Shown here piece by piece: positions 4,229 through 39,365 of a stretch of DNA of 64,000 bases (position 1 is the first letter of the stretch; every line of letters starts with the position of its first letter). A model generated the notes under the pieces. The model had not been told where the DNA came from, searched no databases, and was given only the letters and a program-made list of their open reading frames with translations. The translations under genes were made by a program, and so were the position numbers. Origin of the DNA: Scardovia wiggsiae F0424. Its GTDB lineage: Bacteria > Actinomycetota > Actinomycetes > Actinomycetales > Bifidobacteriaceae. The stretch lies in contig NZ_AKCI01000001.1 in assembly GCF_000269605.1 (NCBI RefSeq), positions 992,001 to 1,056,000 of the forward strand, in the 5' to 3' direction.

Positions 4229-4705
4229 TCAGTCAAAAAGCCCGGCAGCAGTACTGTCCTGGGCAGCCTGTTCAACCTTGATGTTGACCTGGGCAGGGCT
4301 CAGGAGGAAAACACGCGGGGTGACACGTTCGATGGACCCACGGACCCCGAAAACTACGCCTGCAGAAAAATCAACAATACGGTAGGCAACTGCCTCAGGG
4401 ACACCGGTCAGATTGAGCACGACAGGGACGCCGTCGCGGATAGCCCTGCCCACCAGCTGTGCCTCTTCATATGTTTTAGGATGGATCGTTGTGATGCGGT
4501 TCATGCGCGACCTCGGGGTTGGGGTATGTGTGACGGAAGATGGCGGAGCGGACTCAGTCGTGTAAGAAGGCCGGGGGGCAACATCCTCGTCATCATCGAA
4601 AGTCGAATCCGACGGTTCGGCCGAGTATTCCTCTATATCCCGGTCTTCATCTTCGGTACTTGCCAGCCCGAAGAATGACATAGCGCCTTTAAAAGGGTTC
4701 GCCAT
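4229..4705 (-). CDS. sepF: Cell division protein SepF
   Basis: Membrane-associated partner of FtsZ that tethers and bundles protofilaments at the septum. The N-terminus MANPFKGAMSFFGLAS is the membrane-targeting amphipathic helix. An acidic linker (about residues 20-60) leads to the SepF core, with TTIHPKTYEEAQLVGRA and DGVPVVLNLTG, then RIVDFSAGVVFGVRG. A very strong ribosome site (AAGGAGG) precedes two adjacent ATG codons; the second, at 4705, has the better spacing and gives the conserved start. It follows ftsZ by 27 bp, so the two are surely co-transcribed. Its length of 158 residues is normal. Confidence 0.94.
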   Translation of the reverse strand: MANPFKGAMSFFGLASTEDEDRDIEEYSAEPSDSTFDDDEDVAPRPSYTTESAPPSSVTHTPTPRSRMNRITTIHPKTYEEAQLVGRAIRDGVPVVLNLTGVPEAVAYRIVDFSAGVVFGVRGSIERVTPRVFLLSPAQVNIKVEQAAQDSTAAGLFD

Positions 4706-4732
4706 CATACCTCCTTAAGGTAATTCCCTGCT

Positions 4733-6043
4733 TCAGCGCAGGAAGTCAGGGATAATAAGGCCATCGTCAGGGTCGGCTTCAGGTATTTCAGGGGTATCAT
4801 CCTGTTTTGGCCGGGCCGGCTGCGCGGGCTGTGCCGGCTGCGTATCCTGGCTGTGCTGTTCCTGCGGATGCGGCTGGGAAGCCTCAGATACTGCAGGGCG
4901 TTCACCTGTATCATCAGCAGTACCGGCGGGCTCAGCATGCGGCGCAGCTTCCCTGTATGCAGAAGCATCAGCAGCGGTATCGCCGGCACCGGCCCTGCCA
5001 ATAACAGGCTCTTCAGAAGTTTCATCTGCTATCAGCTGGCTTGGAATGCTGCGGCCAGGAGCACGGCTTTCATCCCGGGCGACCCCTTCAAAACCTGTTG
5101 CAATAACAGAGACGACTACCTCATCACCATAAGCATCATCATTAACCAGGCCGATAATGATATTTGCCCCTTTAGCAGCATACTTATTAACAAGCTCAGA
5201 TGCCTGGGTGAACTCTTCAAAGCCCATATCAGTCGGACCCGCAATATTTACCAGGAGGCTGGTAGCGCCATCAATAGGGGTATCAAGGAGCGGCGAGTTG
5301 ACAGCGATCTCAGCCGCCTGGACAGCCCTGTCTTCACCGCGGGCATGCCCGATACCGAACATCGCCGTCCCTGCATTCTGCAGGACAGAACTGACATCCT
5401 GGAAGTCAACGTTGATCGTGGGGTTAGTGCTGGAGATCAGGTCTGTGATGCAGCGCACTCCCGACATAAGGGACGTATCAGCCATCTGGAATACTTCGCG
5501 GATATTCATGCCCTTGATATCCATATCCTGGAGGCGGTCATTCGGGATGACGATAAGGGCATCCACTTCTTTACGGAGCTTCTCAATCCCGTCCTCAGCC
5601 GATGCCGCGCGTCGCCCGCCTTCAAAACTGAAAGGTTTTGTTACCACACCAATAGTTACGGCACCCTGCTGGCGTGCAGCACGCGCTACGATTGGGCTGG
5701 CGCCGGTACCGGTGCCGCCGCCTTCCCCGGCAGTCACAAATACCATATCCGCGCCTTTAAGGACCTGCTCGATCTCACTCTGATGGTCCTGCGCGGCCTT
5801 TGCACCACGCTCAGGATCTGCACCGGCCCCAAGGCCCCGGCTGGAAGAATCCGTCAAAGCGATGCGCACATCCGCATCACTTTTGTTAAGATCCTTCATA
5901 TCAGTATTAACAGCTACAAACTCAACGCCTGCAATGCCCTCGTCGATCATACGGTTGACAGCATTCCCGCCGCCACCGCCGACGCCTACAACCTTAATGA
6001 CTGTTTTACTGTTCATCTCTTCATTTGGGTCAAGGTCGGTCAT
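4733..6043 (-). CDS. ftsZ: Cell division protein FtsZ
   Basis: Tubulin-like GTPase that forms the Z-ring. The glycine-rich GTP-binding segments are intact: VGVGGGGGNAVNRM near residue 20 and the tubulin signature GEGGGTGTGASP near residue 110. The T7-loop region reads NVDFQDVSSVL. After the core there is a variable Pro/Gln/Ala-rich linker (about residues 320-420) and a conserved C-terminal peptide, DGLIIPDFLR, the docking site for SepF and FtsA-like partners. The ATG at 6043 has AGGAG nine bases upstream and is preferred to an in-frame TTG at 6064. sepF follows 27 bp downstream. No ftsQ/ftsW or mur genes are upstream; dus lies there instead. Confidence 0.97.
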   Translation of the reverse strand: MTDLDPNEEMNSKTVIKVVGVGGGGGNAVNRMIDEGIAGVEFVAVNTDMKDLNKSDADVRIALTDSSSRGLGAGADPERGAKAAQDHQSEIEQVLKGADMVFVTAGEGGGTGTGASPIVARAARQQGAVTIGVVTKPFSFEGGRRAASAEDGIEKLRKEVDALIVIPNDRLQDMDIKGMNIREVFQMADTSLMSGVRCITDLISSTNPTINVDFQDVSSVLQNAGTAMFGIGHARGEDRAVQAAEIAVNSPLLDTPIDGATSLLVNIAGPTDMGFEEFTQASELVNKYAAKGANIIIGLVNDDAYGDEVVVSVIATGFEGVARDESRAPGRSIPSQLIADETSEEPVIGRAGAGDTAADASAYREAAPHAEPAGTADDTGERPAVSEASQPHPQEQHSQDTQPAQPAQPARPKQDDTPEIPEADPDDGLIIPDFLR

Positions 6044-6283: not shown

Positions 6284-7453
6284 TCAGTATGACGCATCAT
6301 CAACATCGCCCTCAAATATGTTTGCACGCTCAGCATCTGTAAGGGAGTGCGATTCCAGCCATCCATACGGCAGATGGACCTTTCTGGCATAGCGTGTCCG
6401 CCCGCGCGGCTTATCAGCAAGCTCCCGGGGGAAGCGCGCACCGGGATCAAGCCTGTCCAGCTCGCGGCGTACGTCGGCCAGGGACTCGCAGCGCATAAAA
6501 GCCGACCGGGTATGCCCTCCAACAGGGAAACCCTTAAGGTACCACGCAATATGCTTGCGCAGATCGCGGACAGCCATCTGCTCATCGCCGTCACAATATT
6601 CAGTCAGCAGCTGCGCATGCCGCATAATCACCCGGGCGACCTGCCCGAGATCCGGGTCAGTACGGCTGCTGCTGCCGGCGAACGCATTCCTGATATCCGC
6701 AAAAAGCCACGGACGCCCCTGGCATCCCCGCCCAACAGCCACACCGTCGCACCCGGTCTGGTTGGACATGGCAATGGCATCTTCTGCAGTCCAGATATCG
6801 CCGTTCCCTATAACAGGTATTGACACACACTCTTTCAGCCTGCTTATCTGCGACCAGTCAGAATGCCCTCCGTAATACTGGGCTGTTGTACGGGCATGGA
6901 GCGTAACATAAGCGCATCCCTCAGACTCTATGATATGCGCAGCTTCAATCATCGTTTCATGCGAATCATCAATACCCACGCGGATCTTTGCTGTTACCGG
7001 GATACCGGCAGGGCTGCACACACGCACCACCCTGCGGATAATATCCTTGAGGAGCCCCGTCTTCCAGGGCAGGGCAGACCCTCCTCCGCGGCGGGTGACT
7101 TTAGGGACCGGACAACCAAAATTAAGGTCAATATGGTCTGCCATATTGCCGTCAACGACCATCCGGGCTGCCTCTTCAACGATCGCAGGGTCAACCCCGT
7201 ACAGCTGGAGGGAACGGAACTTTTCCGAAGGCGCAAAGCGGCACAGACGGAAAGCTTTAGGATTGCGCGCAGTTAAAGCACGCGCAGTCACCATCTCTGC
7301 AATATACAGCCCGTCAGGACCATATTCCTCGCATAAGACCCGGAACGGCCAGTTCGTCACCCCCGCCATCGGCGACAGGACAACGGGTACGCTTACTGTG
7401 TGGGTACCGAGCATGAAGCCGGGCAAAACCCCTTTCTGGCCCATCCCTGCCAT
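6284..7453 (-). CDS. dus: tRNA-dihydrouridine synthase (Dus family)
   Basis: Flavin-dependent enzyme that reduces uridine to dihydrouridine in tRNA D-loops. Family hallmarks are LSPMAGVTNWPFR near residue 28 (FMN site), NFGCPVPKVTRRGGG near residue 112 with the catalytic Cys, then HARTTAQYYGG and IPVIGNGDI. The length of 389 residues is typical for the actinobacterial DusB-like group. The first of two nearby ATGs (7453) is used; no strong ribosome site separates them. The gap to glyS is only 13 bp, so glyS-dus form a transcription unit, as in other bifidobacteria-like genomes. The exact tRNA positions modified are not predictable here. Confidence 0.93.
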   Translation of the reverse strand: MAGMGQKGVLPGFMLGTHTVSVPVVLSPMAGVTNWPFRVLCEEYGPDGLYIAEMVTARALTARNPKAFRLCRFAPSEKFRSLQLYGVDPAIVEEAARMVVDGNMADHIDLNFGCPVPKVTRRGGGSALPWKTGLLKDIIRRVVRVCSPAGIPVTAKIRVGIDDSHETMIEAAHIIESEGCAYVTLHARTTAQYYGGHSDWSQISRLKECVSIPVIGNGDIWTAEDAIAMSNQTGCDGVAVGRGCQGRPWLFADIRNAFAGSSSRTDPDLGQVARVIMRHAQLLTEYCDGDEQMAVRDLRKHIAWYLKGFPVGGHTRSAFMRCESLADVRRELDRLDPGARFPRELADKPRGRTRYARKVHLPYGWLESHSLTDAERANIFEGDVDDASY

Positions 7454-7466
7454 AAAAACACCGGAC

Positions 7467-8897
7467 CTATGCAGCGGCAGCCGCGCGGACAGCTTCAGGG
7501 GTGCGCGGATACGTATTGCGCTTATCTTTAATAAACGCCCCTACATAGCCTGCAACACGGTCCAGGGCTACACGCTCCTGCTTCATGGTATCGCGCTCAC
7601 GGATGGTCACAGCCTGATCATCCAGCGTGTCAAAATCAACAGTAACGCACAGCGGGGTACCGATTTCATCCTGGCGGCGGTACCGGCGTCCGATAGCACC
7701 CGCCTCATCGTAATCGATATCCCAGCCATCCTCGCGGAGATCATCGGCAAGGTTATGGGCAATGCCCTGGAGTTCGGGTTTCCTCGACAGCGGGAAAACC
7801 GCCGCCTTCACCGGCGACAGCCGCGGATCAAGGCGCAAGACCGTACGGGTATCAACCCCTCCCTTAGTATTGGGGGCTTCATCCACATCATACGCATCAA
7901 CAAGGAATGCCATAAGCGAACGGGTCAGCCCTGCGGCAGGCTCTATCACGTACGGTATGAAACGCTCGCCGGAAGCCTGGTCAAAATAGCTCAGGTCCTT
8001 GCCGGAATGCTGCGAATGTGCGTTCAGGTCATAGTCGGTGCGGTTTGCTATGCCTTCAAGCTCCCCCCAGTCAGAGCCCTGGAAACCGAACTTATACTCA
8101 ATATCCACTGTACGCTTGGAATAATGGGACAGTTTCTCCTTCGGATGCTCATACAGGCGGAGGTTATCAGGGTTAATACCAAGATCGACATACCACTGGC
8201 GGCGTGCATCGATCCAGTACTGATGCCACTCTTCATCGGTCCCCGGGACAACGAAGAATTCCATCTCCATCTGCTCAAACTCGCGTGTACGGAAAATGAA
8301 ATTCCCCGGAGTGATCTCATTGCGGAAGCTTTTGCCCATATTGGCAATGCCGAAAGGGGGCTTCTGACGGGAAGTCCCCAGGACTTCCGCAAAATCAACG
8401 AAAATACCCTGCGCCGTTTCCGGGCGGAGATAATGCAGCGAATTCTCATCTTCAACAGGCCCCAGATGGGTGCGGAGCATCATATTGAAATCGCGGGGCT
8501 GGGTCCATTTGCCTACAGTGCCGCACTCAGGGCACGGTATAACACCCATACCCTCAGGCGTATGGCCATGTTTAGCCTCATAATGCTCTTCAAGATGGTC
8601 TGCACGGAAGCGCTTGTGGCAGTTCAGGCATTCAACCAGCGGGTCATTAAAGACATTGACATGCCCGGAAGCGACCCATACTTCGCTGGGAAGGATGACT
8701 GACGTATCAACACCGACTACATCGCCGCGCGTGGTCACCATGGAACGCCACCACTCATGCTTGATATTGTCTTTGAGTGCAACGCCCAGAGGGCCGTAAT
8801 CCCATGCGGAACGTGTGCCTCCGTAGATCTCTCCCGCGGGGAATACGAACCCCCGCCTTTTCGCCAGCTGGGTGACTGCTTCAAGCTTTGACTCCAT
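7467..8897 (-). CDS. glyS: Glycyl-tRNA synthetase (alpha2, eukaryote/archaeal-like type)
   Basis: Class II synthetase that charges tRNA-Gly. It opens [20 protein letters not shown] and has the typical motif [14 protein letters not shown] zinc-binding insertion has CLNCHKRF and [10 protein letters not shown] (about residues 84-130). Motif 2 is [15 protein letters not shown], and the anticodon-binding domain is C-terminal. GAGGAGG eight bases upstream fixes the ATG at 8897 rather than the longer frame to 8936. Its 476 residues match the single-chain type found in actinobacteria rather than the alpha/beta type of E. coli. It heads a unit with dus. Confidence 0.96.
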
Positions 8898-33038: not shown

Positions 33039-33461
33039 CTATCCTTCCTGCTCTAGGAGCTGTACAAACTGTTCAGGTGTATAAACAGGGATCACTGATC
33101 TGGCATAATCTTTGGTATTCCGGGTAATAATACAATCCATACCCGAACGGACTGCCGTTTCTATCATAACTGCATCTTCAAAGTCAGATACCTCTGAGGG
33201 GATAGCACGGAGTACATCATCCGCAGCACTGTCGAGCATCCCGACAATACTCAGCAGCTGCTCCAGTTTCGACCTAGATTCCTTATCGTTATGGGTACAG
33301 CGATGGGTGAGATAGTAAATATCAGTTGCAGATTTCGCAGTGATGCAGCAAAGGCAAAGCTCGGCTGCCGCGGCGCGTAAAACAGCACGGGCAGATTCAG
33401 CAAAAGGTTCCCTCGCCTGAAGGAAATCTACGATAATACAGGTATCTACCAAGGCCTTCAT
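33039..33461 (-). CDS. PIN-domain ribonuclease toxin (VapC-like)
   Basis: A 140-residue PIN-domain protein, predicted to be the RNA-cleaving toxin of a toxin-antitoxin pair. The acidic residues of the PIN site are visible: Asp6 in LVDTCIIVDFL, the DFEDAVMIETA pair near residue 92, and the late RNTKDY. The ATG overlaps the antitoxin stop (ATGA, 33458-33461), so the two are coupled. Its base composition matches the host better than the adjacent A+T-rich island does. The target RNA is unknown. Confidence 0.85.
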   Translation of the reverse strand: MKALVDTCIIVDFLQAREPFAESARAVLRAAAAELCLCCITAKSATDIYYLTHRCTHNDKESRSKLEQLLSIVGMLDSAADDVLRAIPSEVSDFEDAVMIETAVRSGMDCIITRNTKDYARSVIPVYTPEQFVQLLEQEG

Positions 33462-33673
33462 ACCCTGTTGAGCCTCTCTTCCTTCGACTCTTCCAGAGTC
33501 ATACCTGCCGGGATACTGCCGAACAAAGAATTTACAGTATCCAGTTTATTCTGGTACGGGGAAGTCAGCTTGGCGACTGTCCTGCCGTTGCGCGTAACAT
33601 AAACATCCTCTGTCGCTGCCATCAGGAGATATTTCCCGAGGTTTGCCTTCAGCTCTGTTGCAGTGATAGACAT
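33458..33673 (-). CDS. Phd/YefM-family antitoxin
   Basis: A 71-residue partner of the PIN toxin. The N-terminal MSITATELKANLGKYLLMAA and VYVTRNGRTVAKLTSP are characteristic of the Phd/YefM DNA-binding domain. The C-terminus is acidic and basic mixed (LEESKEERL) and would cover the toxin. The ATG at 33673 follows AAAGGAGG; an upstream frame to 33778 adds non-conserved residues. Such antitoxins usually repress their own promoter, which would lie in 33674-33780. Confidence 0.87.
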   Translation of the reverse strand: MSITATELKANLGKYLLMAATEDVYVTRNGRTVAKLTSPYQNKLDTVNSLFGSIPAGMTLEESKEERLNRV

Positions 33674-33847
33674 GGCTTTTATCCTCCTTTCCATGTAATT
33701 GGTACTTCTAGTATACTTAAATCGTACGAATTGATCAATAATATCGAACGGAATTGCTATACCGTATGTAGCATCCACCGTTATGGGGGAATCAGCACTT
33801 TTAATCTTGTATTTTCCAGATAAAAAGCCGCAAACACTCTAAAATAT

Positions 33848-35172: not shown

Positions 35173-36513
35173 GTGCTTATGAGAACAGGGCAAACAATGG
35201 CAGATACTACCGCTGCACACACCAGCAGCACTGACCGCGCCAGCCGCGCTAACCGAGTTCCTCAGGTTCCCGGGGATGCCGCCAAGGCTGCCGAAACATC
35301 AAAACAGGCTATGCGGCTGTTCAACCTCAGCAAAAACAAGCTTGTCAAAATAGCCCAGTGGTACAGGGATCTCGGCGAACAGGAACGGGAATTCCTCAAC
35401 CTCATTACAGTGACCGCAATCGAAGACTATCTGGAATGGGCCAACCTCCCGGAGCCTATCGATAAGCGCGGAAAAGTAAGTGCTGACCATCTCTTCTCCA
35501 TCGCGCCTATTGAAACAGCACGCGCGATCAGCCTGTCGAATGTGCTTGAAGTGACCCGCACTGTCGTTGATATAATCACGGAGAATATCGGCATTATTGC
35601 CCCAAAAGGGAAGGAACGCGACTATTACGAGGCAGCCCTGTACTACTCGCGCGAAGTTTCCTTCTCGGCAGCCGAAGTATATGCTGAGGTAGCCGAAACG
35701 CGAAGCCGCTGGATGACGCGCGAAGAAGGCCTGGTGCTCAACTCCCTTCTGGAGAATAAGCTTGACCTCGCCCTCCAGTCCCGCATGGGCGTATACGGAT
35801 GGGATGACTCCACTGCCTTTTTCGCTGCAGTTGGCAGCGCACGGGCACAGGAGAATTCCGAGATCACAACCGGATTCTTCCAGGCCCAGACACGCCTTGC
35901 GGTACAGGGCCTTGATGCGGAGATCCTTATGGGCACGCATACGAATACCCTTTTTATGGTCCTTGTGGGAGCCGGCAGCAGCGAAAATTTTGATAGCATA
36001 CGCACCAAGATCGCAAACCTCTTCAGCGAAGACGACTGCCTGTGCATTGGGCCGTATGCCACAGGGTATGAAGGGGCGTCGCACAGCATCCGCGCAGCGT
36101 ATAACGGTTACTATGCCAGCGCGATGGAACTTGATCCGCCGCATCCGCTTTTCGCTGATGACATCATTGCAGACCGTGTGCTTTTCGGCGATGCAACAGC
36201 AGCAGACCAGCTTTACAGTATCTACAGGTCCCTTGAAGATTCCGGCAAGCGCAGCGAAGTACTGCCGACAGTGGAATACTATCTCCTGAAAAACTGCTCG
36301 CTTGAACAGACCGCGGAACATATGGTCGTACATCCGAATACTGTAAGGTACCGGCTGCATAAAGCTATGGAGCTCACAGGGTGGGATCCGACGAACCCCA
36401 AGGAAGCGCACGCACTGCGGATCGCCATCAAAATAGGCCGGTACCGCGAGGCGCGCAGCAGGAGTTCTACTTATCCCCGGGCTGTCCCCCAGCTGGGCAG
36501 CCATGATCAATGA
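35173..36513 (+). CDS. FasR-like PucR-family transcriptional regulator
   Basis: A 446-residue regulator. The C-terminal PucR-type helix-turn-helix is clear (CSLEQTAEHMVVHPNTVRYR, about residues 375-395, then AHALRIAIKIGRY). The central part YYSREVSFSAAEVYAE near residue 157 and the following ETRSRWMTREEGLVLNSLL resemble the PucR-like regulators beside fabD in Streptomyces (FasR), as I recall them. I therefore infer a role in fatty-acid synthesis control, with fas and acc about 14-28 kb away as candidate targets. The start is open: GTG 35173, ATG 35179 or ATG 35197, none with a strong ribosome site. The 3' end overlaps gmk tail-to-tail by 47 bp. Confidence 0.78.
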   Translation: MLMRTGQTMADTTAAHTSSTDRASRANRVPQVPGDAAKAAETSKQAMRLFNLSKNKLVKIAQWYRDLGEQEREFLNLITVTAIEDYLEWANLPEPIDKRGKVSADHLFSIAPIETARAISLSNVLEVTRTVVDIITENIGIIAPKGKERDYYEAALYYSREVSFSAAEVYAEVAETRSRWMTREEGLVLNSLLENKLDLALQSRMGVYGWDDSTAFFAAVGSARAQENSEITTGFFQAQTRLAVQGLDAEILMGTHTNTLFMVLVGAGSSENFDSIRTKIANLFSEDDCLCIGPYATGYEGASHSIRAAYNGYYASAMELDPPHPLFADDIIADRVLFGDATAADQLYSIYRSLEDSGKRSEVLPTVEYYLLKNCSLEQTAEHMVVHPNTVRYRLHKAMELTGWDPTNPKEAHALRIAIKIGRYREARSRSSTYPRAVPQLGSHDQ

Positions 36514-37105
36514 TCTCCCACAACTGCGACGCAGCTTTCCCTACTTCATCGTTGATGATGACCACATCGAATTCGCCTTCTTCAGCCATTTCCCGCCGTG
36601 CTGTATCAAGGCGGCGGGCCTGCTGTTCGGAGGTCTCGGTATGGCGCGACTGCAGACGGCGCTTCAGGTCGTCAAAACTTGGAGGCGCAACAAAAACATA
36701 AACCGGATCCAGGCCCAGCTCCTGTGCGCGCGCCCGTACACGGTGCACCCCCTGTACGTCTATTTCCAGCATTGAGGGGATATTGGCCTTAAGATGCTCC
36801 AGTACGGGCTTCAGCGGCGTGCCGTAATGGTCCGTGCCGTGCACCACGGCCGATTCCAGGAGCTCACCGCGGGCATCCATCCGTTCAAATTCTTCAGCAG
36901 TTGTGAAATAATAATCTACACCGTCTTTTTCACCGGGGCGCGGCCGGCGGGTAGTTGCGGAAACAGATATCCACAGTTCAGGGTGTTCCGCCCGGACCGC
37001 TTTCTCTATCGTCCCTTTGCCCACAGCAGTAGGTCCGGCCAGTACAACAAGCCGGCGTTTATATGCGGTTATATCAGGGGTTACGTCAGGAGTCTTATCC
37101 GGCAT
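36467..37105 (-). CDS. gmk: Guanylate kinase
   Basis: Phosphorylates GMP to GDP. It has the P-loop VLAGPTAVGKGTIEK near residues 21-35, the GMP-binding SATTRRPRPGEKDGVDYYF and the lid region SRHTETSEQQARRL. Its 212 residues are normal. The start overlaps the pyrF stop by one base (TGATG), so the two are coupled. The 3' end runs 47 bp into the convergent regulator gene. Confidence 0.95.
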   Translation of the reverse strand: MPDKTPDVTPDITAYKRRLVVLAGPTAVGKGTIEKAVRAEHPELWISVSATTRRPRPGEKDGVDYYFTTAEEFERMDARGELLESAVVHGTDHYGTPLKPVLEHLKANIPSMLEIDVQGVHRVRARAQELGLDPVYVFVAPPSFDDLKRRLQSRHTETSEQQARRLDTARREMAEEGEFDVVIINDEVGKAASQLWEIIDHGCPAGGQPGDK

Positions 37106-38106
37106 CAGTCAGCGTCCTGCCCTTCCCGTATGCCGTGGGCAATCTGTTCAGCGGTTTCGCCATTTGCCATGCGCCTGTCCATATCATCGAAAGACTGCTG
37201 TATATCGGTTTTATATTCGTCTATCTTTTTCCGCAGGGAACTGATATCGGGCCCGTACGCAGCGATCGCGCGCGCAGCCGTAACAAGGACATTATGATAC
37301 GTCCCGGCAAAAACCACTTCAAGGTCTTTGCCTTTTGCCCCCTGCCAGCCGTATCCGGGAGACAGGATCGGCCCGGTAAATTCGGCAGGGTTCATGCCGT
37401 TAAGATCCATCTGATGCCCTATGGTCGCCCCGATAACAAGGCCCACAGACCCCATGCCGGGATAGCCGTCATTGTAATTCTGCGCGCCGCGCGCGATCCC
37501 ATAGGCAACCGTCCTGCCTTCATATTCCCCGCGCTGGCGGATAGATGTCTGGAGGTTTGCCGCTTCAGGGTTTGAGGTCAGCGATGCGATAAACACCCCA
37601 TGCCCCTGGCTCAGGGCATCCTCAATCAGCCCGTTGAGCGAATGGAACCCGTAATAAGGGATAAGCGTGATCGCATCAGTGTATAAAGGCCCGTCTGATT
37701 TAAGATAGGCATCAGCGATAGATGACAATGTTGTAGGGAGCCCCCCGCGCATACAGTCAACTATAGTGATCATCCCAAGCTGCCGGGCAGCATACAGTGC
37801 ACGTTCCAGCGCTGCTATGCCTTTCGAACCGTAGCGCTCAAACATCGGCATCATGAACTTGACTGCGGCACACCGGCCTTCAGCAGCCTGGAGCATCCGC
37901 ATAGCGAACAGCTCCGCGCCCTGCGGATCTACAGAGTAGCCCCAGTCAATAAGGTTTTTACGGTGCGGGTCAATACCGACGCACAGGGGGCCGTACTCCT
38001 TCATGGAGTCGCTTAGCCTCAGGCCGAATTCATACCGGATCGGATCCACAGAAGGGCCGGCGGAGGAGCCTGCTCCGCTCAACGCAGTTTCAGGGGAATC
38101 AGTCAT
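37105..38106 (-). CDS. pyrF: PyrF-like orotidine-5'-phosphate decarboxylase homologue with altered active site
   Basis: A 333-residue TIM-barrel protein of the type 2 PyrF family: LCVGIDPHRKNLIDWG near residue 40, AVKFMMPMFERYG, YTDAITLIPYYGFHSL, FIASLTSNPEAANLQ and GPILSPGYGWQG. The catalytic motif, normally DAKRGDIG, reads DCMRGGLP (about residue 117). The first Asp is kept, but the catalytic Lys is Met and the second Asp is Gly; I confirmed this on the nucleotides (37760-37780 region). Decarboxylase activity is therefore doubtful. The frame is intact and shares a 1-bp overlap with gmk, so it is expressed and not a simple pseudogene. carA and carB, often between nusB and pyrF in relatives, are absent. 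The role may have changed. Confidence 0.82.
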   Translation of the reverse strand: MTDSPETALSGAGSSAGPSVDPIRYEFGLRLSDSMKEYGPLCVGIDPHRKNLIDWGYSVDPQGAELFAMRMLQAAEGRCAAVKFMMPMFERYGSKGIAALERALYAARQLGMITIVDCMRGGLPTTLSSIADAYLKSDGPLYTDAITLIPYYGFHSLNGLIEDALSQGHGVFIASLTSNPEAANLQTSIRQRGEYEGRTVAYGIARGAQNYNDGYPGMGSVGLVIGATIGHQMDLNGMNPAEFTGPILSPGYGWQGAKGKDLEVVFAGTYHNVLVTAARAIAAYGPDISSLRKKIDEYKTDIQQSFDDMDRRMANGETAEQIAHGIREGQDAD

Positions 38107-38153: not shown

Positions 38154-38786
38154 TTATTTTATTATCTTATCCTCAGATGCTCCAGCCTTTTCCCATTCTG
38201 CAGCATCAGCTTCAGGATGGCTTTTATCGGCAGGCTCATACGAAACTTTATTGCCGTTATCTTCGCTGTCCGGTCCGGCAGCCCTGTCAGATCCGGGATC
38301 CTCATCAGGCCAGCCGGCACCGTCAGGCTTTTCTGCGGCGAGCTGCGCACGATGCCCCTGCCATTCAGCTTCTTCCTGGCGGACAGCATCCGCATCCTTC
38401 TCTACAGCGCTGAGGAGCCCGTGCAGGAAGTTCGGGGCTTCGTCATCCGAATACGATTTCGCCAGGCTGAGGGCCTCATCGATAGCGACCTTTGCAGGCA
38501 CGTCATCGTTATAGACGATCTCCCACACCGCTATACGCGCAATATTGCGGTCAAGGGCATGCATACGTTTCACATCCCATCCTGTGGAATGCTCGCCGAT
38601 AGCCTTGTCTATCGTCCGGCGATGCGAAGCGACCCCCCTCACCAGCTCCTGGGCATACTCAGGAAGCGGGGTCTGCGCACCGGGGAATACCAGGCGTTCC
38701 TCGAGAAGGGGCATTATCTCCTGCCCCTTCTCATCAGCTTCATACAGCGTGTTAAGCGCGCGTTTGCGTGCGGTCGATCGTGCCAT
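38154..38786 (-). CDS. nusB: Transcription antitermination factor NusB
   Basis: RNA-binding antitermination factor used in rRNA transcription with NusE. The NusB fold covers residues 1-140: RSTARKRALNTLYEADEKG at the start, DKAIGEHSTGWDVKRM in the middle and AKVAIDEALSLAKSYSDDEA near residue 100. A C-terminal tail of about 65 residues is rich in Asp, Glu, Gly and Pro and looks disordered; such tails vary in actinobacteria. It lies 15 bp after efp and 47 bp before pyrF. Confidence 0.93.
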   Translation of the reverse strand: MARSTARKRALNTLYEADEKGQEIMPLLEERLVFPGAQTPLPEYAQELVRGVASHRRTIDKAIGEHSTGWDVKRMHALDRNIARIAVWEIVYNDDVPAKVAIDEALSLAKSYSDDEAPNFLHGLLSAVEKDADAVRQEEAEWQGHRAQLAAEKPDGAGWPDEDPGSDRAAGPDSEDNGNKVSYEPADKSHPEADAAEWEKAGASEDKIIK

Positions 38787-38801: not shown

Positions 38802-39365
38802 TCAGTTTTCACGACCCAGGTAAGAACCGTCGCGCGTATCGATTTTGACCTTTTCACCTTCAGAGATGAACAGAGGGACCTGTACCTCTGCCCCGGTCTC
38901 AACGGTCGCAGGCTTGGTGCCGGCACTGGAACGGTTCCCCTGGAGGCCCGGCTCCGTATGGGACACAGTCAGGATAACAGAAGCGGGCAGTTCAACAGAC
39001 AGGGGGTTCCCGTCATGGAACGAAACGATGCAGTCTGTGCCTTCAAGGAGGAATTTCTCCTGTTCGCCGACCAGCGATTCAGGGATGAATACCTGGTCAT
39101 AAGTCTGCATATCCATGAAAACAAAATTGTCACCGTCACGGTATGAGTACTGCAGTGTCCGGTTATCTACAGTCTCAAAATCAAGCTTGACACCTGCATT
39201 GAATGTTTTATCTACGATCTTTCCGCTCAGGACTTCCTGGATCGTCGTGCGGACAAAAGCAGGGCCCTTGCCTGGCTTCACATGCTGGAATTTGATTACT
39301 TTCCAGAGTTTCCCTTCAAGGTTGAGTACAGATCCGTTCTTGATATCGTTTGATGTTTGTGCCAT
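38802..39365 (-). CDS. efp: Translation elongation factor P
   Basis: Relieves ribosome stalling at polyproline stretches. It has the N-terminal KOW-like domain with [19 protein letters not shown] (the loop Lys near residue 32 is present), an OB domain with [16 protein letters not shown] and C-terminal [13 protein letters not shown] and [11 protein letters not shown]. Its 187 residues are typical. AAGGT precedes the ATG. No Lys-modifying enzyme is nearby. It heads the efp-nusB-pyrF-gmk run. Confidence 0.96.

Follow-up and report, generated by a model that had tools for sequence, protein, structure and literature searches.

The pyrF2-gmk locus

Four genes lie on the minus strand in the order efp, nusB, pyrF2, gmk within the window, by which we mean the whole 64,000-nucleotide stretch of DNA that was analysed (Table 1). 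We take the two upstream frames to be nusB and efp. The gene referred to here as pyrF2 is an unbroken open reading frame running from ATG to TGA, and the start of gmk overlaps its stop. A sequence-only reading of this DNA had described the frame as intact and the operon position with gmk as kept, and both descriptions hold. About 3 kb from gmk, at 33039-33778, a frame resembling a PIN-domain toxin and an upstream antitoxin-like frame were noted by eye.

Table 1. Features of the pyrF2-gmk locus, in window coordinates
Feature	Position	Strand	Evidence
pyrF2, altered type-2 OMP decarboxylase homologue (putative pseudoenzyme), 333 aa	37105..38106	minus	ORF, profiles, predicted fold
Altered DxKxxD motif, D117-C-M119-R-G-G122	37741..37758	minus	codons
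K83 codon (AAG), retained first Lys of the tetrad	37858..37860	minus	nucleotides; invariant in 80/80 (best 80 of 169 loci)
TGATG, pyrF2 stop and gmk start sharing one base	37103..37107	minus	nucleotides, ORF ends
gmk, guanylate kinase, proposed partner	36467..37105	minus	TIGR03263, 203 bits (cut-off 160.45)
nusB (presumed), upstream neighbour	38154..38786	minus	ORF; orthologues upstream in many named loci
efp (presumed), upstream neighbour	38802..39365	minus	ORF; orthologues upstream in many named loci

A conserved fold with an altered catalytic motif

The DxKxxD motif of active PyrFs, which comprises the proton-donor lysine and the aspartate reaching in from the partner subunit, reads DCMRGG in PyrF2. 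The lysine is replaced by M119 (ATG, 37750-37752) and the aspartate by G122 (GGG, 37741-37743), while D117 (37756-37758) is retained. Both residues that mark an active PyrF are therefore absent. The codons agree with the sequence-only reading on these two replacements, and also on VKFM in place of the VKPQ of PyrF. The same reading had held that the rest of the barrel is kept, which is borne out by several comparisons. PyrF2 matches Pfam OMPdecase with 49.7 bits (cut-off 27) and TIGR02127 with 192.5 bits (cut-off 110.6), and it aligns with the Streptomyces avermitilis OMP decarboxylase 3v75 at E 2e-60, M119 standing opposite the Lys and G122 opposite the Asp. The predicted fold (pLDDT 82.8) aligns with 3v75 at Z 36.7 and an rmsd of 2.1 over 279 residues, with 39% identity. 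By profile, barrel fold and tree, PyrF2 is a member of the OMP decarboxylase superfamily. A sequencing error or local oddity was rejected: DCMRGG also occurs in both same-genus genomes compared (L004 and L005), and every one of the 80 named orthologues (the best 80 of 169) differs from active PyrFs at these two positions.

A second PyrF and the pyrimidine pathway

A genome search revealed two OMPdecase genes in the window's own genome. The second one, PyrF1 (C1:630734-631432), carries canonical VKPQ and DIKRGD motifs and shares no more than about 29% identity with PyrF2. Its cluster, read from the translations, comprises pyrB, pyrC, pyrF1, pyrK, pyrD and pyrE. A carB gene exceeding its family cut-off lies at C1:532952, and carA was found as well. 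As this cluster and carB are present in the same genome, pyrimidine synthesis has not been lost. The sequence-only reading had pointed to a second pyrF and to carAB, pyrB, pyrD and pyrE as informative, and all of these were found, PyrF1 being intact. Its proposal that pyrimidine synthesis is lost and the gene in early decay finds no support, since the pyr genes are there and the change in the motif is ancient and has been conserved. The carA and carB genes (L183, C1:529000-540000) lie away from nusB-pyrF2-gmk and are only 42% and 46% identical, respectively, to a bifidobacterial pair. The low identity and the separate location suggest that a foreign carAB replaced the original pair in the window's genus.

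Distribution, conservation and selection

Searched with the window protein, 88 of the 151 Bifidobacteriaceae genomes had a PyrF2 orthologue and 63 had none. Eighty-seven of the orthologues scored at least 352 bits with at least 55% identity; the remaining one, in genome G028, scored 218 bits with 42%. Every one of the 88 genomes has at least two TIGR02127 matches; this check and the 88/151 count were read by eye. The G028 copy (L034, about 4363-5262, minus strand) has lost further pocket residues and shows GIHPD, VEFP and DTSRGG, and the genus mates of G028 in the sample (G016 and G039) have no PyrF2.

Residues were compared in the named loci (Bifidobacterium, Gardnerella, Pseudoscardovia, Galliscardovia and unclassified Bifidobacteriaceae), the best 80 among 169 that were confirmed. 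Position 122 is glycine in all of these best 80 of 169. Position 119 is leucine in 72, glycine in five, methionine in two and valine in one, and lysine in none of the same 80. The corresponding hexamers, again among the best 80 of 169, are DCLHGG (53), DCLRGG (18), DCGHGG (five) and four singletons. D46, K83, D117, T126, Q255 and R279 are invariant in 80/80 (best 80 of 169), with the D46 and K83 counts biased upward because the patterns used to find these loci contained GIDPH and AAVKF; the DxKRGD site, T126, Q255 and R279 lie outside those patterns. Of the charged or histidine positions shared by at least 97% of the 80 orthologues (best 80 of 169), K83 is the sole lysine, and a relocated catalytic lysine was rejected, K83 being the only conserved candidate. 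The DxKRGD motif is intact in 20/20 Actinomycetales PyrFs, in 16/16 Bifidobacteriaceae PyrF1 sequences (16 loci, some from genomes without PyrF2) and in 4/4 single PyrFs of genus g4. The alignment thus yielded no active subfamily in which another Lys and Asp take these positions, a possibility that the sequence-only reading had raised against its own interpretation.

Substitution rates were estimated by the Nei-Gojobori method for 83 loci (3403 pairs). Mean dN was 0.163 for PyrF2 versus 0.217 for Gmk, and median dN/dS, taken from the 1350 pairs kept, was 0.17 versus 0.20. PyrF2 is under purifying selection with its catalytic residues absent, and it changes more slowly than the adjacent Gmk. 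Given this low dN and dN/dS, PyrF2 is a conserved paralogue rather than a decaying gene.

Origin of PyrF2

In a tree of 59 sequences and 278 columns (IQ-TREE, LG+G4+F), the PyrF2 sequences form a clade (ultrafast bootstrap 99) that groups with the Actinomycetales PyrFs (100); the branch separating PyrF1 is 2.5 changes per site long. Among the outgroup loci listed, carB precedes the active pyrF in 17/18 and gmk follows it in 10/18, the other eight having too little flank or no match to gmk. As judged from the tree, PyrF2 is a vertical descendant of the actinobacterial PyrF of the carAB-pyrF-gmk locus; together with the outgroup gene order, this indicates that it keeps the ancestral place and descent and has apparently lost the chemistry. 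The three outgroup loci checked for it (L142, L148 and L153) have a small frame between pyrF and gmk, presumably mihF-like, which is absent between pyrF2 and gmk of the window. Outside Bifidobacteriaceae the best match reached no more than 279 bits, compared with 544-591 bits for ten PyrF2 matches; this search covered 248 genomes of the order and 246 of the class, the two sets overlapping, and motifs were inspected in 20 outgroup loci, so that the residues may have been lost independently elsewhere. Four loci of genus g4 of the Bifidobacteriaceae (L035-L038) have a single PyrF with DxKRGD intact, which falls outside the clade of PyrF2 and Actinomycetales PyrFs, and no canonical PyrF1 was found in them.

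Association with guanylate kinase

Downstream of pyrF2 and on the same strand, gmk is found in 80/80 named loci (best 80 of 169); it is the next gene or fused in 79 of these 80 and, where unfused, lies within 281 bp in 59/60 loci of the same best 80 of 169. The exception is Galliscardovia ingluviei (L106), where two small frames at about 6970-7775 separate the two genes; by eye, these resemble a RelE/YafQ and RelB/DinJ toxin-antitoxin pair. carB lies upstream of pyrF2 in 78/80 named loci (best 80 of 169) and is absent from the available sequence around the other two (L053 and L131).

PyrF2 and Gmk form one open frame of 500-643 residues in 20/80 named loci (best 80 of 169). The linkers vary in length and sequence, the frame is unbroken in all 20, and the two fusions scanned passed the cut-offs of both families. 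On a PyrF2+Gmk tree the 20 fusions form one clade (one change, SH-aLRT 98), which indicates a single event kept in 20 loci, so that the 20 species are not independent. As the linkers contain in-frame ATG or GTG codons, Gmk may also be made alone from an internal start in the fused loci. The model of a fusion (pLDDT 72.4, pTM 0.62) gave no confident domain packing, and its Gmk half was poorly modelled.

In the window's genus carAB has gone from the locus and pyrF2-gmk are still together, which argues for Gmk rather than CarAB as the partner. CarAB as the partner of PyrF2 is disfavoured, its genes there lying elsewhere and being so little like the bifidobacterial pair. In eight loci examined from genomes without PyrF2, gmk comes immediately after carB in four; in the other four it comes after unrelated genes. 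Gmk does not need PyrF2 everywhere, as these loci and the PyrF2-free genomes of the family indicate. By eye, the carB-gmk interval of L162, L164, L166 and L167, which have no PyrF2, holds transporter-like and aminotransferase-like genes and a PIN-like pair, as if the site tolerated insertions. The adjacency to gmk is partly inherited, the active pyrF also lying near gmk in outgroups; this and the single origin of the fusion lower the odds of the main reading given below and of its bolder version.

Discussion

Both residues lost from PyrF2 are essential in the yeast enzyme. According to the accessible part of PMC12874384, alanine variants of yeast D91, K93 and D96' have no detectable decarboxylation, K93C loses more than 1e8-fold, and the DxKxxD core is said to occur in all organisms. 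The window residues aligned with D91, K93 and D96' are D117, M119 and G122. On the strength of this mutagenesis, PyrF2 very probably does not decarboxylate OMP. The proposal of the sequence-only reading that the protein is a pseudoenzyme with another role is thereby strengthened, K83 being the only conserved lysine and the gene being under purifying selection.

The residues that hold the ribose and phosphate have a different fate. In human OMP decarboxylase these are Asp259, Lys281, Thr321', Gln430 and Arg451, as given in the text seen of PMC12631982, and by motif reading, not superposition, they correspond to D46, K83, T126, Q255 and R279, all of which are kept. The same portion of that paper lists XMP (at about 0.2 uM) and UMP as ligands of OMP decarboxylase, states that GMP is not bound by the human enzyme, and contains its authors' suggestion of purine-pyrimidine crosstalk. 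It is likely, judging from the retained residues, that PyrF2 binds a nucleotide. Class-specific conserved changes surround the pocket (F84, G122, A174 and W254). Phe84 replaces a proline and Trp254 an alanine, and since both alter the pocket, the ligand may not be UMP.

We lean towards the reading that PyrF2 is a dead OMP decarboxylase that would still bind nucleoside monophosphates and act as a partner or regulator of Gmk. In Bifidobacteriaceae, the distantly related PyrF1 would make UMP, and PyrF2 would have given up the Lys and Asp on which decarboxylation depends and retained the nucleoside-monophosphate pocket. Co-produced with Gmk, or as one protein with it, PyrF2 would bind a nucleotide (UMP or XMP, for example) without turnover and would tune Gmk through that contact, linking the pyrimidine and purine pools. 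Contact between PyrF2 and Gmk is somewhat more likely than not; that PyrF2 regulates Gmk is about evenly poised. A bolder version, in which an ancestral OMP decarboxylase turned into a UMP/XMP-sensing regulatory domain of Gmk, a control point between pyrimidines and purines that was fused in one clade, is put forward tentatively, at slightly less than an even chance.

Alternatively, PyrF2 could catalyse a new reaction in its changed pocket of nearly invariant Cys118, Leu/Met119, Gly122 and Trp254, acting on some other phosphorylated compound as members of the OMP decarboxylase suprafamily from different branches do. The retention of K83, D117 and the binding residues, the class-specific pocket changes listed above and the strong selection on PyrF2 would all fit such an enzyme. 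However, the acid-base pair normally used is missing, other residues replace Cys118 in some forms (DGLQGG and DSGHGG), and the fusion to Gmk would be left unexplained, so that we regard this as unlikely. Slightly less likely still is a purely structural, assembly or expression partner of Gmk or CarAB, with no ligand sensing. The conserved order carAB-pyrF2-gmk and the PyrF2-Gmk fusion agree with a scaffold of this kind, yet invariant nucleotide-binding residues are unexpected in one, and CarAB as its partner is at odds with the displaced, divergent carAB of the window's genus. OMP decarboxylation by PyrF2, whether with residues at new positions or in a dimer shared with PyrF1, is very improbable: K83 and D117 are kept and the TIGR02127 score lies above the curated cut-off, but no conserved lysine other than K83 could substitute, Asp122 is missing in 80/80 (best 80 of 169), and the identity between PyrF1 and PyrF2 is low, at about 29%. 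Decay after loss of pyrimidine synthesis, to which the two lost catalytic residues, the 63 genomes without PyrF2 and the eroded G028 copy might point, is no more probable. It is rejected for the family, given the intact pyr cluster, the open frame, the purifying selection with a mean dN below that of Gmk, and the same replacement in 80/80 (best 80 of 169); individual lineages, G028 among them, may nevertheless be decaying.

The putative regulatory partner of Gmk can be set against several known systems. With type-2 PyrF (TIGR02127; S. avermitilis 3v75) it shares the barrel and, by motif, the ribose and phosphate residues, and with the type-2 PyrF of Actinomycetales also the locus carB-pyrF-gmk. 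It differs from type-2 PyrF in the lost DxKxxD lysine and partner aspartate, in P84F and A254W, in often adjoining gmk without a small gene between, and in being fused to Gmk in one clade. The downstream gene or domain is Gmk, exceeding the TIGR03263 cut-off both in the window and in each of the two scanned fusions; unlike ordinary Gmk, it carries an N-terminal pseudo-OMP-decarboxylase domain in 20/80 named loci (best 80 of 169). UMP synthase (OPRT-OMPDC) fusions, such as the Leishmania protein 3qw4, which was among the structure matches to PyrF2, likewise join the barrel to another nucleotide enzyme. In UMP synthase, however, both domains catalyse successive steps, whereas PyrF2-Gmk joins a purine kinase to a barrel that is without its catalytic residues.

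Pseudoenzymes as a general class can regulate an active enzyme. PyrF2 resembles the regulatory members of this class in having lost catalytic residues while keeping fold and conservation, and in its association with an active enzyme; those pseudoenzymes regulate their partner, whereas regulation of Gmk by PyrF2 is putative. Pseudoenzymes that regulate active enzymes are touched upon in the part seen of a review (PMC11266112).

A literature search, by which subscription papers were mostly not covered, found no report of bifidobacteria with two PyrFs, of a PyrF that is inactive or of a fusion between PyrF and Gmk. In the section of PMC12459721 examined, Bifidobacterium pyrF is treated as OMP decarboxylase and two copies go unmentioned. 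Most purine and pyrimidine genes of B. breve are essential according to PMC5514069, whose main text, as far as it was available, does not name pyrF or gmk.

A vertically inherited actinobacterial copy of a textbook enzyme, OMP decarboxylase, has thus lost the DxKxxD core across most of a family, and it has nevertheless been kept more strictly than the adjacent kinase. PyrF2 would be a naturally occurring OMP decarboxylase that is inactive yet has preserved its binding residues. It also leads us to predict that, in common gut bacteria, pyrimidine metabolism is connected with that of GMP in a new way. As TIGR02127 passes PyrF2, automatic PyrF annotation may assign the reaction to a protein that is probably incapable of it.
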